Assembly: GCA_949297715.1 (NCBI GenBank)
Contig: CASFTJ010000002.1
Location: 1 to 64,000, forward strand
DNA length: 64,000 nucleotides
Direction of reading: 5' to 3'
DNA from: an uncultured bacterium
GTDB taxonomy: Bacteria; Cyanobacteriota; Vampirovibrionia; Gastranaerophilales; Gastranaerophilaceae
Shown here one piece after another: positions 2-8,517 of this stretch (the stretch's first letter is position 1; each line of letters begins with the position of its first letter). Position numbers and translations under genes: made by a program. Under the pieces are notes generated by a model that was given only the letters and a program-made list of their open reading frames with translations, was not told where the DNA came from and ran no database searches.

Positions 2-3000
2 TACACAAATACTCAAGGTGCAATGACCGTAAACGGTAAAATAAATAACGAAGGCGGTAATTTAAAATTAGACAATAGCGGCACAGGTATCAGCATAACC
101 GACGGAGCATCAGTATCAAATAAAAACGGCAACTTAGATATATTAAATACAGGTGCTGATGGGATTTTTGTAGACAAGAATGCTGCGATTACAAATGAAA
201 ATGGCAATATGTTTGTTTCAAACAGCGGCGAAGGCGGTTTGACAATCAATGGTGTAGCATCAAATACAAAAGGAAATGCTGAATTTAACAATTCAAACGG
301 ATTTTTGAATGTAAACGGTAAAATTTCTAATAATGATAAACTTCTAGCAATTAGAAATACCGGTGACGGTTTAAATATTAATGAAGGCTCTTTTGTTGAT
401 AGTGAAGGTCAGCTATTGATCGAAAACAGCGGTATTAATGGAATGAATATTTCCGGCAGAGTAGATAGCAAAGGCGATGCTGATATAATCAATTCAAACG
501 GTAATTTGAATATAAATACAAATGCTGATATTAACCATAAATCTGTTGAAAATAATTATATAAATATTTCAAACTCAGGCAATAAACTTTACATTGACGG
601 TAATGTAGAGTCTGAAAATGGCAAGATGAATATTTCAAATACAGGTACTGGCGGTCTTCACATTGACAAGAACGGAAAAATTAGCGATGTAAAAGTTGAA
701 GTTGACAGTGGTGATGGCGATATAGAATATAACCATACTCCAGAAATAAATATCAGTAATGACAGTGTTGCTTCAATGGATATAGACGGAACGATTGATT
801 CTTATAACAATCACTATAACATTACAAATGCCGGTAAAGGCGGAATTAATATAAATGAAACTGCTAATATAAATGGAGTTACTGAAGAAGAATCAACAAT
901 AACAAACTTTGGTGACGGCGGCATTAAAATATCAGGCAACATAACAAGTGGGGATCCGTATTTAGGCGATCTTTACGGTGATGCTGGATTAACAATCAAA
1001 AATGACAATTCTGTATCAGGAATCCACGTAACCGAAACTGGCAACATAGATTCTAAGAATATAGATCATACGAATATTTACAACAATGGCGAACAAGGAA
1101 TTGTTGTAGATGGACAGATTAGCCAGAATTACGCAAAAAATACGCCTGACTCTTTGAAAATTGTAAACACAGGCAAAGGAGGAATTAATCTATCTTCAAC
1201 AGGCAGAATTAACAATACTTCCAGCACATACGTTGAAAACAGCGGTAAAGACGGCATTAAATTTGCAGGTTTAACAAAAACTAACGGTTTAACTGTAAAT
1301 AACAAAGATTCAAATGTAGTTATCGGTGATAATACAGATAATGACAAGTATATTACATCAAGCGGTGACGTTAAGATAGCCGTAAACAACGGAAGCATTC
1401 TTAACTACGGAGTTAACAAGACTTTAATAAATATTGAAAATGCAGCCTTGTTGAATATGAGTGCTACAGACGGTACAATCGGTCTTGATGATGGAAATTG
1501 TGGCGCAGCTTGTATAGGTGTAGGTCCTGACTCAAGGGATTTCACAAAGTCAATCAATGTAACTTCAGACGGAGCAATTACTGCAACAACTACTCAAGAT
1601 GCTTTAACTGATGATTTGGTAATCAATATTGCAGGTAAAAATTCAGATTTAAATATTGACCAAGTAAAAGCAGACGGAAAAGTAATATTAACAACTGCAG
1701 ATTTTGATGAAAATAACAAGGGTTATTCAATCCTGAATGCTTCAACGGATCCAACAAAAGCAAATATTGAAGGTAAAGGAATTGCATTAATCGCAAGCGA
1801 CAAAATTGGTGAAGCTGATAACAAACTTACATTCAACCAGACCGCAGGTAAGTTTAATATGGAAGGTTATGATTTGGATAATCTTACATATCAGCCGAAT
1901 GCAGAGTATGGAATGGATGTACTTGCAATAAATGATATCAATATCAAAGGTCAGGATGACAAATATGATACAAATGTATGTACAATGATTTCAAGAGAAG
2001 GTTCAATAAATGCAGAATTCTCAGGAAATACATATATAAGAGAAGTTACGGCAGACAAAGAACTTAACCTTGTAACAAGAGGTGCGGAATTTGTAATAGA
2101 TAACTTAGGCACAGTTCCATATACTCCGGAAGATTACTTTGGACCAAACGGAAACAATGCTCCAGATACGGTTATAGTAAAAGCTCTAGATATAAACCCG
2201 AACACAAGGGTTGATGATGCTGGACTTGTAGATGGAGTTCATAGTCACTGGGCAGATTCTCACATAATTATTAAAAACGGAAAAGTTGATGATAATGCAA
2301 AGATTGTCTTAACCGGTGATAATGTATATGCAGGCGGTTACCGTTTCTATATGGGTAAAGACAGAAACGAAGACGGAAAAACTTACTGGGTATATGATGA
2401 CAGAACTGCAATGACTGATATGAGCGGAAATGGCCCGACAATCAGAGTAAATGCAGTAAGAGAAGATGATGTAACATCAATCGGCAGACAAGAAGAAGAA
2501 CGTAACTATTATACAGGCGGCAGCGTACAAGAGGATGAGCCTTGGTATGACGACGATGACGATGATGATCATATAATTGTTCCGGAACCTGGTGACGATG
2601 ACGACGGCGACGATGGTGACGACGGTGACGATGGCGATGACGGCGACGATGGTGACGACGGCGACGATGGCGATGACGGCGACGATGGCGATGACGGCGA
2701 CGATGGTGACGACGGCGACGATGGCGATGACGGCGACGATGGCGATGACGGTGACGATGGCGATGACGGTGACGATGGCGATGACGGTGACGATGGCGAT
2801 GACGGTGACGATGAGCCTAATCCGCCTGTGGGTGATGACGATGATGATGATTTGCCGGTAACAAGGGATGACGCTAAGCGTACTTGGAAAAAAGTAATTG
2901 CAGACGATGTTAATATCATCGACAAACGTCAATACATAAGATTTCGTGTTGACCATAACCCTCATCCGGTAGTATTTGAAAGTATTCCTACAGTATCATC

Positions 3001-3256
3001 ACTTGTTGATGTTTCAAGAGGCGGTGTCGCTTTGACTCATAGCAATGCACTTAAAGTTGGTGATGTTGTTCCGGTTCATATTAAGTATGGTGACTTAAAT
3101 ATTGATGCAGATGTCAAAGTTGTAACCGCATCAGATAGAAGAGCCGGTGCAGAGTTTGTAAATCTTGATCAATCAACAGCAAACAGACTTCTTTATTTGA
3201 ACTTGATGCTTGAAGAAGATCAAAAATTAACACTTGGCGGTAATAACCAAATATAA
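2..3256 (+). CDS. giant beta-helix adhesin with Asp-rich repeat and C-terminal PilZ domain (5' truncated)
   Basis: The reading frame is open through the left window edge, so the start and any signal peptide are missing. Numbering here counts from the first in-window ATG at 23. Residues 1 to about 600 are short imperfect repeats of the type NSGxxGxxIxG alternating with GNxxxxN, typical of filamentous-haemagglutinin-like right-handed beta-helices. Residues about 640-830 form a less repetitive region. Residues 857-930 are GDDDD followed by 23 GDD triplets. The last 110 residues read as a PilZ domain: R969xxxR973 and D996xS998xxG1001, the two c-di-GMP-binding motifs, are both intact. By family the repeats would be surface-exposed, while PilZ domains act in the cytoplasm; the combination is odd. 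A terminator follows. The adhesin call is by repeat style; the PilZ call is by motif. Confidence 0.8.
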   Translation, partial: YTNTQGAMTVNGKINNEGGNLKLDNSGTGISITDGASVSNKNGNLDILNTGADGIFVDKNAAITNENGNMFVSNSGEGGLTINGVASNTKGNAEFNNSNGFLNVNGKISNNDKLLAIRNTGDGLNINEGSFVDSEGQLLIENSGINGMNISGRVDSKGDADIINSNGNLNINTNADINHKSVENNYINISNSGNKLYIDGNVESENGKMNISNTGTGGLHIDKNGKISDVKVEVDSGDGDIEYNHTPEINISNDSVASMDIDGTIDSYNNHYNITNAGKGGININETANINGVTEEESTITNFGDGGIKISGNITSGDPYLGDLYGDAGLTIKNDNSVSGIHVTETGNIDSKNIDHTNIYNNGEQGIVVDGQISQNYAKNTPDSLKIVNTGKGGINLSSTGRINNTSSTYVENSGKDGIKFAGLTKTNGLTVNNKDSNVVIGDNTDNDKYITSSGDVKIAVNNGSILNYGVNKTLINIENAALLNMSATDGTIGLDDGNCGAACIGVGPDSRDFTKSINVTSDGAITATTTQDALTDDLVINIAGKNSDLNIDQVKADGKVILTTADFDENNKGYSILNASTDPTKANIEGKGIALIASDKIGEADNKLTFNQTAGKFNMEGYDLDNLTYQPNAEYGMDVLAINDINIKGQDDKYDTNVCTMISREGSINAEFSGNTYIREVTADKELNLVTRGAEFVIDNLGTVPYTPEDYFGPNGNNAPDTVIVKALDINPNTRVDDAGLVDGVHSHWADSHIIIKNGKVDDNAKIVLTGDNVYAGGYRFYMGKDRNEDGKTYWVYDDRTAMTDMSGNGPTIRVNAVREDDVTSIGRQEEERNYYTGGSVQEDEPWYDDDDDDDHIIVPEPGDDDDGDDGDDGDDGDDGDDGDDGDDGDDGDDGDDGDDGDDGDDGDDGDDGDDGDDGDDGDDGDDGDDGDDGDDEPNPPVGDDDDDDLPVTRDDAKRTWKKVIADDVNIIDKRQYIRFRVDHNPHPVVFESIPTVSSLVDVSRGGVALTHSNALKVGDVVPVHIKYGDLNIDADVKVVTASDRRAGAEFVNLDQSTANRLLYLNLMLEEDQKLTLGGNNQI
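2606..2812 (+). repeat. in-frame 9-nt tandem repeat encoding (Gly-Asp-Asp)23
   Basis: There are 23 consecutive 9-nt units, alternating mainly between GGCGACGAT and GG(C/T)GATGAC, so an 18-nt superperiod is visible. The tract is much richer in G+C than its surroundings. It is a likely site of slipped-strand copy-number change; any change by whole units keeps the frame and preserves the downstream PilZ domain. Confidence 0.9.
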
Positions 3257-3407: not shown

Positions 3408-4220
3408 ATGAAATTAATGGAAGGCAAAAAGGGTGTTATTTTTGGAGTTTCAAACACCCACGGAATTGCTTATGCAATAGCAAGACAGCTATATGAAGCC
3501 GGTGCAGATATTGCATTTACTTACGCCGGTGAACCGATGGAAAAAAGAGTTCGACCACTTGCAGAAGAAATGGGCGCAAAGATTATTATGAACTGCGATG
3601 TTACAAAGGAAGATGAAGTAGCTGCAGTATTCAAAGAATGCGAAAGAGTATACGGAAAAATAGATTTTGTGGTACATGCGGTTGCATTTGCGGCAAAAGA
3701 AGATTTGCAAGGAAGATTCATTGATACTTCTCGTGCAGGTTGGGATTTGGCAATGGGTGTAAGTGCATATTCATTGATTTCTTTATGTAAACATGCAGAA
3801 CCTGTTATGAATGAAGGTGGTTCAATTTTTGCTCTGACTTACCTTGGTTCACAATATGTAGTAGCAAATTACAATATTATGGGTGTAGCAAAAGCTGCAT
3901 TAGAATCTTCAATGAGATATTTAGCCGCAGATCTTGGTAAAAAGGGTATCAGAGTCAACTGTATTTCTGCTGGTGCCGTTAAAACACTTGCAGCTAAAGG
4001 TATTTCGGGATTTGACAAAATGCTTAAAGCTGCAGTTGCTAAAGCACCTCTTGGACGTAATGTTTCACTTGAGGATGTCGGTAAAGCAGGTTTATACTTG
4101 GCTTCAGACTTATCAACCGGCACAACGGGTCAGATACTATACGTAGATTGCGGATGCCATGCTGTTTATGCATCATTAGAAGAAATGGAAATTATAGCAA
4201 ATTCTATTCCGAAAGCTTAG
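3408..4220 (+). CDS. fabI: enoyl-[acyl-carrier-protein] reductase (NADH), FabI type
   Basis: This enzyme reduces trans-2-enoyl-ACP in the last step of each fatty-acid elongation cycle. The 270-residue protein is the usual FabI length. It has an N-terminal Rossmann start (GVSNTHGIAYAIA) and the FabI catalytic spacing Y145-x9-Y155-x6-K162 in TYLGSQYVVANYNIMGVAKA, which distinguishes it from the classic YxxxK reductases. The C-terminal GQILYVDCGCHAVY also fits the family. It is monocistronic: it has its own promoter, a GAGGGAG ribosome site and a strong terminator. The tyrosine at the first catalytic position is the residue contacted by triclosan-type inhibitors in this family. The identification is secure. 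Confidence 0.96.
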   Translation: MKLMEGKKGVIFGVSNTHGIAYAIARQLYEAGADIAFTYAGEPMEKRVRPLAEEMGAKIIMNCDVTKEDEVAAVFKECERVYGKIDFVVHAVAFAAKEDLQGRFIDTSRAGWDLAMGVSAYSLISLCKHAEPVMNEGGSIFALTYLGSQYVVANYNIMGVAKAALESSMRYLAADLGKKGIRVNCISAGAVKTLAAKGISGFDKMLKAAVAKAPLGRNVSLEDVGKAGLYLASDLSTGTTGQILYVDCGCHAVYASLEEMEIIANSIPKA

Positions 4221-5862: not shown

Positions 5863-8517
5863 ATGACAGAGACTGCAATAAAGATAGAAGATTTACCGAC
5901 GGTATATGACCCTAAAGCAACGGAAGAAAGTATTTACAAATTTTGGGAAGAGGGCGGATTTTTCAAGGCTGATGCAACAAGCGATAAACCGCATTACTCT
6001 ATAGTAATACCCCCGCCGAATGTAACGGGAGTTCTTCATATGGGACATGCTCTTGATGAAACATTGCAGGATATTTTAACCCGTTACCACAGAATGTCAG
6101 GGTTTGAAACTTTATGGCTTCCTGGAACAGACCATGCTGGGATTGCGACTCAGAATGTCGTTGAGAAAAAACTTCGTGAAAAAGGGTTGTCTCGTTACGA
6201 TTTGGGACGTGAAAAGTTTTTGGAAGAAACCTGGAAATGGGCAAATAAACATAAATCAGCTATTTTGGATCAATGTAAACGTTTAGGAGCATCTTTTGAC
6301 CGTTCAAGAGAAAGATTTACGTTTGATGAAGGGTGTTCAAAAGCTGTAAAAGAAGTTTTTGTAAGACTTTATGAGAAAGGTATGATTTATAAAGGCAAAT
6401 ATATCGTAAACTGGTGCCCGAGATGTAACAGTGCGATATCAGACGTTGAAACCGAATACGTAACAGAACAAGGGCACATGTGGGAAATTTCATATCCTTT
6501 AAAAGGTGAGTCAGGTGCGATTATTGTTGCAACAACAAGACCTGAAACAATTTTCGGTGATGTTGCAATCGCAGTTCACCCGTCTGACCACAAATACTCT
6601 GAACTTGTCGGAAAAACGGTTGTAATTCCTCTAACAGGACGTGAAATTCCGATTATTGCAGATGAATACGTAGATAAGAATTTCGGAACAGGCGCCGTAA
6701 AAATTACGCCGGCTCACGACCCGAACGATTACGAAGTCGGAAAACGTCACAATTTAAAACCAATTTGGGTAATTGATGAAGAAGGCAAGATGAAAGCTTG
6801 TGGCGAAGTTCCGCCAGAACTTCACGGGCTTGACAGGTATGAAGCAAGAGAAAAAATTATCGGAATGCTCTCTTATAAGAATTTCTTGTTAAGAACACGT
6901 GATCATGAGCATAATGTCGGCAAGTGCCAGCGCTGCGGAACAACGATTGAACCGCTTCTTTCTGAACAATGGTTTGTGAAGATGGGCCCGCTTGCAAAAG
7001 AAGCAATAGCGGCAGTAAAAGACGGTCGTATAAAATTTGTTCCAGACAGGTGGGAAAAGAATTACCTGGGCTGGATGGAAAATATACGTGATTGGTGTAT
7101 TTCCCGTCAATTGTGGTGGGGACATCAAATTCCTGCTTATTATCACAATGTAACCGGAGAAATGGTTGTTGCAAGGGAAAATCCTGATCCTGAAAATTAT
7201 ACGCAAGATCCTGATGTTTTGGATACGTGGTTTTCGTCAGGTTTGTGGCCGTTCTCTACTATGGGCTGGCCAAACACAGACTCAGAAGACTTTAAAAAGT
7301 TCTATCCGACAACAACTTTAGTTACAGGATTTGACATTATTTTCTTCTGGGTTGCCAGAATGATAACAATGGGGCTTGAATTTACAGGTAAAGCACCATT
7401 TTCGACAGTTTATATCCACGGGCTTATCAGAGATGAAAAAGGTCAGAAAATGTCAAAATCAAAAGGTAACACTATTGATCCTGTTGAAATTATCGACAAA
7501 TACGGTAGTGACGCTTTAAGATTTACAATGACATCACTTTGTACTTACGGCGGTCAGGATATCAAAATCAGTGATGAAAGATTTGAATACGGCCGTAACT
7601 TCGCAAACAAAATTTGGAATGCGTCAAGGTTTGTCTTGATGAATTTATCAGGAGTAGACAATAAAGACATTGATTTTGACAGCCTTACAATTGCTGATAA
7701 ATGGATTTTGAATGAGTTAAATAATACATCAAAAGAGATTAACGAAAACATAAAAACCTATAGAATAGGGGAAACTGCGCATGTTTTATATGATTTCTTC
7801 TGGAATAAATATTGCGATTGGTATGTAGAGATTGCAAAAATTCAACTACAGGATGAAAGCTTAAAATTAAATACCCAAAGGGTTTTAAGATATGTTCTTG
7901 ATATGTCATTAAGAATGCTTCATCCGATAATGCCTCATATAACAGAACGTGTATGGCAGTTAATCCCCAAAGAAACCTCAACAAAAGCTATAATAGTTGC
8001 GGAATTTCCGACATTTAGCGAGGCTTTAGAGTTTCCGAAAGAAGCAGAAGAAATGGAGCTTGTTTTTGAGACAATCAAGTCGTTAAGAAATCTTCGTCAA
8101 GGCTTCAACATAGCAATGTCAGTAAAATTTGACATAGAAATTCGAGCAAGCAAGAATGAAAAACCGATATTTGAAGCGATAGAAGCGTATATAAAACGTC
8201 TTGCTCGTGTTGAAAATATTACATACGGAAAAGAATCTGATGAAGCTCCGAAAAAATCAGCAACAGCTGTTGTATGGGCATCAAAAATTGTTGTACCGTT
8301 AGAAAATCTAATAGATTTTAATGAAGAAATCGCACGTCAACAAAAGAAACTTGACAAACTGACAGCAGAGAAAAAATCGCTGTCCGGCAGAATAAATAAC
8401 CCCAAATTTGTGGCAAATGCGCCGCAAGAGCTTATAAAACAAACAAAAGAAAGAATTGAGGAGATTACCCTTCAGGAAAAAACGATAGAAATACTGATAA
8501 ATTCACTTAAAAACTAA
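5863..8517 (+). CDS. valS: valyl-tRNA synthetase
   Basis: This class Ia aminoacyl-tRNA synthetase charges tRNA-Val. The 884-residue protein fits the family. HMGH at 59-62 is the HIGH signature in the ValS-type context PPPNVTGVLHMGHAL, and KMSKS lies at 529-533. The editing (CP1) domain lies between them and includes ATTRPETIFGD. Two Cys pairs (CPRC and CQRC) suggest zinc-knuckle remnants. The C-terminal about 65 residues form the ValS-specific coiled-coil arm. AGAAGGA lies 7 nt before the ATG. No T-box-like leader fits in the short upstream gap. Confidence 0.98.
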   Translation: MTETAIKIEDLPTVYDPKATEESIYKFWEEGGFFKADATSDKPHYSIVIPPPNVTGVLHMGHALDETLQDILTRYHRMSGFETLWLPGTDHAGIATQNVVEKKLREKGLSRYDLGREKFLEETWKWANKHKSAILDQCKRLGASFDRSRERFTFDEGCSKAVKEVFVRLYEKGMIYKGKYIVNWCPRCNSAISDVETEYVTEQGHMWEISYPLKGESGAIIVATTRPETIFGDVAIAVHPSDHKYSELVGKTVVIPLTGREIPIIADEYVDKNFGTGAVKITPAHDPNDYEVGKRHNLKPIWVIDEEGKMKACGEVPPELHGLDRYEAREKIIGMLSYKNFLLRTRDHEHNVGKCQRCGTTIEPLLSEQWFVKMGPLAKEAIAAVKDGRIKFVPDRWEKNYLGWMENIRDWCISRQLWWGHQIPAYYHNVTGEMVVARENPDPENYTQDPDVLDTWFSSGLWPFSTMGWPNTDSEDFKKFYPTTTLVTGFDIIFFWVARMITMGLEFTGKAPFSTVYIHGLIRDEKGQKMSKSKGNTIDPVEIIDKYGSDALRFTMTSLCTYGGQDIKISDERFEYGRNFANKIWNASRFVLMNLSGVDNKDIDFDSLTIADKWILNELNNTSKEINENIKTYRIGETAHVLYDFFWNKYCDWYVEIAKIQLQDESLKLNTQRVLRYVLDMSLRMLHPIMPHITERVWQLIPKETSTKAIIVAEFPTFSEALEFPKEAEEMELVFETIKSLRNLRQGFNIAMSVKFDIEIRASKNEKPIFEAIEAYIKRLARVENITYGKESDEAPKKSATAVVWASKIVVPLENLIDFNEEIARQQKKLDKLTAEKKSLSGRINNPKFVANAPQELIKQTKERIEEITLQEKTIEILINSLKN

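Follow-up and report, generated by a model that had tools for sequence, protein, structure and literature searches.

An apparently exported PilZ domain at the C-terminus of large two-partner secretion adhesins in Gastranaerophilales

PilZ domains are treated as cytoplasmic receptors of cyclic di-GMP (c-di-GMP), and YcgR, Alg44, MapZ and MrkH, which carry such domains, act in the cytoplasm. How then can a PilZ domain form the end of a surface adhesin, and on which side of the membrane does it lie? The question is raised by a gene at the edge of one contig (C2) of an uncultured Gastranaerophilales bacterium, whose genome assembly has 2.02 Mb in 34 contigs. We analyzed the first 64,000 bases of this contig, here called the window, together with related genomes of the order. 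The C-terminal domain of the gene product is a true PilZ domain, and several lines of sequence evidence suggest that it is located outside the cytoplasm.

The adhesin frame and its C-terminal domain

The open frame at nucleotides 2-3256 of the forward strand encodes the last 1084 residues of a large gene, the 5' end of which is lost at the contig start; the adhesin N-terminus is absent because the window begins at base 1 of the contig. In named collections, the nearest relatives are metagenome-assembled genomes labelled Candidatus Gastranaerophilales. The frame contains, in this order, a repeat-rich adhesin part of about 830 residues, a linker rich in acidic residues and a C-terminal domain of 129 residues:

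2..3256, forward strand: C-terminal 1084 residues of an adhesin of the two-partner secretion (TPS) type, LktA family (open frame; full-length orthologs)
2..2506, forward strand: haemagglutinin-like repeat region, predicted to be a beta-helix, and conserved C-terminal adhesin body (repeat pattern; full-length orthologs)
2537..2866, forward strand: acidic low-complexity linker with (GDD)x23 at nucleotides 2606-2812
2867..3253, forward strand: C-terminal PilZ domain of 129 residues (PF07238, AlphaFold2, Foldseek, VIA-align), with the Pfam core at about nucleotides 2924-3190
2927..2941, forward strand: RxxxR half of the c-di-GMP motif (RQYIR), invariant in alignment A1
3008..3025, forward strand: D/NxSxxG half of the c-di-GMP motif (DVSRGG)

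The repeats, the GDD tract (23 units, residues 869-937 of the 5'-open frame) and the two motif halves are those that a preliminary description of this DNA had reported, and they were confirmed in the frame; that description counted residues from the ATG at position 23, so its R969/R973 and D996 to G1001 are 976/980 and 1003 to 1008 in the 5'-open frame. The repeat body may be regarded as a beta-helix by virtue of its TPS family membership, and the adhesin body is also present in full-length orthologs.

The isolated C-terminal piece matches the Pfam PilZ family (PF07238) with 36.4-37 bits against a cut-off of 22.5 (E 4.4e-9 to 6.7e-9). A Pfam scan of the whole window protein does not report PilZ, a miss that we attribute to the low-complexity linker; the PF07238 family search also missed the window's own domain, which makes absences in family searches weak. 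Each of the 30 relatives aligned in A2 has a Pfam PilZ match (E up to 0.1); the invariant Arg columns of A2 are no independent evidence, as this alignment was drawn from motif-bearing members. The AlphaFold2 model shows a barrel followed by a C-terminal helix, with a predicted local distance difference test (pLDDT) of 86-95 per block over residues 41-110, and the best Foldseek matches of such models are solved PilZ structures. By VIA-align the best Z is 11.6, to MotI/DgrA, whereas unrelated barrels give about 5; the alignment to Alg44 with bound c-di-GMP (4rt0_C) has a Z of 10.9 at 2.4 Å over 95 residues. Since PilZ structures match best and 30 of 30 relatives match Pfam PilZ, a chance motif is excluded. 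The domain is a true PilZ domain whose fold matches c-di-GMP-bound PilZ structures.

The pocket is also conserved. Both ligand motifs are kept in 55 of 62 distinct copies of the exported domain; among 28 divergent sequences, no variation is seen at the Ser or the last Gly of D/NxSxxG, and 20 sequences retain one of the two Arg and 22 the other. The ratio of nonsynonymous to synonymous substitution rates (dN/dS) of the domain between close relatives is 0.02-0.07. Such a pocket may bind c-di-GMP or another phosphate-bearing ligand. In a minority of copies, mostly giant proteins, the ligand motif is lost and the domain retained, which suggests a structural role independent of the ligand; the sequences would then fit a structural role common to all copies with a ligand role in most.

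Full-length relatives and the side of the membrane

The N-terminus that the window lacks was seen in full-length relatives, which consist, from N to C, of a Sec signal peptide, an LktA-type TPS domain, a beta-helix and the PilZ domain, always at the extreme C-terminus. Whole PilZ adhesins have about 1,000 to 6,400 residues. The full-length orthologs L007 (also with an NF012204 domain), L008, L009, L011 and L165 start with a signal peptide, an example of which, from L014, is MNSRKRTTRLISAALTSLFLLNQTMMISAFA; NF012204, the LktA-family adhesin secretion domain, follows it in full-length relatives with E 1e-35 to 1e-45. Giants of about 4,200 to 6,400 residues were found via weaker domain matches. 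Their PilZ is again C-terminal, and those whose start was read have the same kind of N-terminus. Two further types of protein complete the picture: free-standing proteins of 169-174 residues with a signal peptide, a short spacer and a PilZ domain with both motifs, and LktA-type proteins that lack PilZ and have about 580-900 residues. As genomes with PilZ adhesins also encode the latter, the PilZ module is optional.

By looking at these architectures the question of location can be approached. The proteins carry Sec signal peptides, and a simple hydropathy scan detected no hydrophobic stretch around PilZ; a transmembrane anchor between adhesin and PilZ was rejected on this ground. The linker differs in composition among relatives (GDD, DTDT, DPT, PTEPT) and, by a rough measure, in length from about 20 to more than 300 residues, which rules out its use as an envelope-spanning ruler. 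In giants of 5,000-6,400 residues only about 20-30 unstructured residues precede PilZ (again a rough measure), so that a cytoplasmic C-terminus with the body outside is hard to arrange. The cysteine content differs as well: 7 cysteines in the 7,316 residues of 62 exported domains (0.1%), or 7 in 3,068 residues of 26 divergent ones, whereas 18 cytosolic PilZ domains from this order have 41 in 1,890 residues (2.2%), and none of the 18 is free of cysteine. Cysteine is about 20-fold rarer in the exported PilZ than in the cytosolic PilZ of the same bacteria, and the two sets form separate clades (support 100/99). Signal peptides without a hydrophobic segment, free PilZ proteins with signal peptides, the tiny linkers of the giants and the depletion of cysteine all favour a location outside the cytoplasm, which we consider well supported.

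The preliminary description had left two options: either the C-terminus remains in the cell as a plug, controlled by c-di-GMP, that retains a surface filament, or the domain has been repurposed outside. The second fits better. The first would have PilZ bind c-di-GMP inside and stall Sec translocation, with the filament spanning the envelope until c-di-GMP drops. It can draw on the cytosolic nature of c-di-GMP, on at least six strong GGDEF proteins in the same genome, on the conserved ligand motif and on linkers of about 130 or more residues (a rough measure) in most members of the short class. Yet the free signal-peptide-PilZ proteins, the linkers of the giants, the loss of cysteine, the PilZ copies without the motif and the lack of a stop-transfer segment near PilZ in the hydropathy scan all speak against it, and we consider such a plug improbable. 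The idea of retention survives, relocated to the periplasm or outer membrane.

Spread, gene neighbourhood and transporter

The same fusion was sought in related genomes and is conserved across the order, with the domain in 157 of 286 genomes and 28 of 50 genera of Gastranaerophilales (E 1e-3 or better), usually in two copies. Outside the order none was found at E 1e-6 in 382 genomes sampled class-wide, a search that more distant copies could escape. The window's own genome carries a second copy that runs off the end of contig C10 (941 residues), with a GDD linker and a PilZ domain of its own, and contig C27 holds an LktA-type N-terminal half. The 1,056-residue protein at L052:2964-6134 (forward strand), in which short PWSADVPW / VEHVEGVEHVEG repeats follow one another, adjoins the N-terminal half of the second adhesin. 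Also on C10, a lone 339-residue frame (L086:3665-4684, reverse strand) matches a giant PilZ adhesin at its C-terminal end, still has both PilZ motifs and lies between unrelated genes; it is probably a decayed remnant. In G050 (contig C20), in G213 (contig C15) and at L014, two or three PilZ adhesin genes stand in tandem.

The neighbours of the adhesin gene are as follows:

3408..4220, forward strand: fabI, enoyl-ACP reductase-like, conserved downstream neighbour of the orthologous adhesin
5863-8517, after fabI: valS, conserved downstream neighbour of the orthologous adhesin
L165:885-2333: flippase gene upstream of the adhesin, with counterparts at this position in L007, L008, L009, L011, L012, L014, L015 and L164

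The first two are genes that we take to be fabI and valS from their similarity to known sequences. They are shared by orthologous loci, and the fabI next to the adhesin is 97-99% identical in six same-genus loci and 91% identical in L012. In several genera the gene immediately before the PilZ adhesin encodes a polysaccharide flippase of the MOP type, a hint at a glycan connection.

Could the fusion be an artefact of a chance motif, a chimeric contig or a frameshift? The gene is truncated by the contig end and has long repeats inside. Against this, the architecture recurs in many genomes and twice in its own, the orthologs are syntenic (fabI, valS) and the dN/dS is 0.02-0.07; a chimera, an assembly join or a frameshift between adhesin and PilZ, which the preliminary description had named as a risk, is ruled out by these observations, and an artefact of any kind has a negligible probability. 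Some matches contain in-frame stops; in L067, the sole case inspected, the stop is the end of the gene.

The search for a partner transporter covered 14 genomes and found ShlB/TpsB-type proteins with POTRA_2 in them, although in G059 the match is weak and could represent BamA; BamA-type Omp85 is present in all 14, which means that an outer membrane and a partner transporter exist. The window's own genome has its ShlB/TpsB on contig C8 (647 amino acids, ShlB and POTRA_2 matches). PilZ proteins and tpsB are associated: tpsB stands next to giant PilZ adhesin genes, in divergent orientation, in G080, G145, G137 and G148, and divergent from the free signal-peptide-PilZ gene, with a 73-bp gap, in G007 and G013, which belong to one genus and count as one independent case. 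Beside the ShlB/TpsB gene of the window's genome and of G044 lies a small gene (L163:2286-2729, L169:5812-6312) that, read by eye, we take to be like the periplasmic chaperone OmpH/Skp.

Comparison with known systems and possible role

The proteins resemble LktA-family adhesins (NF012204, type Vb) in their N-terminal FxxPxG secretion domain, well above cut-off, their repeat body and their ShlB/FhaC-type partner, and differ in the PilZ end, in bodies of up to about 6,400 residues and in that one transporter gene seemingly serves several adhesins. They share the fold (Z 9-11) and both ligand motifs with the cytosolic YcgR, Alg44, MapZ and MrkH; unlike these, the domain follows a Sec signal, is cysteine-poor and forms a clade separate from the order's own cytosolic PilZ. 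In CdrA of Pseudomonas aeruginosa, also a TPS adhesin, the C-terminus forms a hook that lodges in the pore until periplasmic LapG frees the protein at low c-di-GMP (PMC8472254, PMC5422565, PMC4694147). PilZ stands at the same place of the chain as this periplasmic hook (PMC8472254, PMC5422565), but CdrA uses a disulfide hook and indirect control by LapD/LapG, whereas here PilZ is fused to the adhesin itself. No cysteine for a disulfide hook is present in the last 400 residues of the window protein. LapG (PF06035) was found in none of the 14 genomes, with a positive control in Caulobacter, in a search that distant homologs could escape, and LapD was not searched for; a CdrA-type cleavage circuit is therefore not apparent.

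TPS adhesins leave the cell N-terminus first. A mechanism that fits our data is that the TpsA chain, with its Sec signal peptide, would cross the inner membrane in this direction, the LktA-type TPS domain would initiate export via the ShlB/TpsB pore, and the beta-helix would fold outside, as is established for TPS proteins and expected here. PilZ, the last to arrive, may then fold in the periplasm as a compact barrel unable to pass the TpsB pore and hold the filament on the cell, replacing the disulfide hook of CdrA/HMW1, while the RxxxR and D/NxSxxG pocket could strengthen or weaken this hold by binding c-di-GMP or a different phosphate-bearing ligand. Such a periplasmic retention domain, possibly ligand-gated, is the best explanation overall, although a tentative one; by analogy, retention as such is a reasonable possibility, whereas gating by a ligand is doubtful. 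Its most specific form, an extracytoplasmic receptor for c-di-GMP or another cyclic dinucleotide on the adhesin, where binding gates retention or release at the TPS pore as a one-protein switch without LapD/LapG, is more doubtful still.

Another option is that PilZ is fully outside as a surface receptor, which anchors the adhesin or tunes adhesion by binding an extracellular ligand, such as c-di-GMP of neighbours, another cyclic dinucleotide or phosphorylated glycans. An exported, cysteine-poor domain with its pocket intact in most copies would suit this, as would a long acidic linker for a displayed head; the upstream flippase makes a glycan link conceivable, and extracellular c-di-GMP has been reported to affect Campylobacter biofilms (PMC9608569). 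However, with N-terminus-first exit the last domain is most likely held back, and a periplasmic partner explains the free PilZ next to tpsB at least as well, so we regard a surface receptor as unlikely. A different hypothesis is that PilZ aids secretion as an intramolecular chaperone or TpsB-docking module that is cleaved after export, its pocket binding a phosphate group of TpsB or of a lipid. The linkage of PilZ proteins, the free version included, to tpsB agrees with it, and the low-complexity linker could be the cleavage site. Yet the LktA-type proteins without PilZ presumably use the same transporter where only one ShlB-type gene was found (e.g., G018), and neither a protease nor a cleavage site has been identified; this role seems quite improbable.

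The periplasmic retention domain itself has several points against it. Retention is argued from an analogy of position, and TPS adhesins without PilZ in the same genomes make PilZ dispensable for secretion. The window genome's ShlB gene lies away from the adhesin. The placement of the domain rests on sequence evidence, and the cysteine contrast is one of two clades, not of independent samples, so that its p-value is not literal. An intact pocket outside would also need an unusual source of c-di-GMP, which is regarded as cytosolic (PMC8472254), or another ligand.

The literature that we searched, mostly outside subscription journals, contains no report of PilZ in Gastranaerophilales, of a periplasmic or extracellular PilZ or of Melainabacteria haemagglutinins; what is new here is that several lines of evidence argue for an exported PilZ, family-wide in the order. 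These bacteria of animal guts appear to export PilZ on the ends of their largest surface proteins, and strong purifying selection acts on the ligand site. This leaves two alternatives, extracytoplasmic action of cyclic dinucleotides or a c-di-GMP site that now serves another ligand, and both can be tested on a small soluble domain. For type Vb adhesins without a known hook and protease, such a domain offers a possible anchor mechanism.
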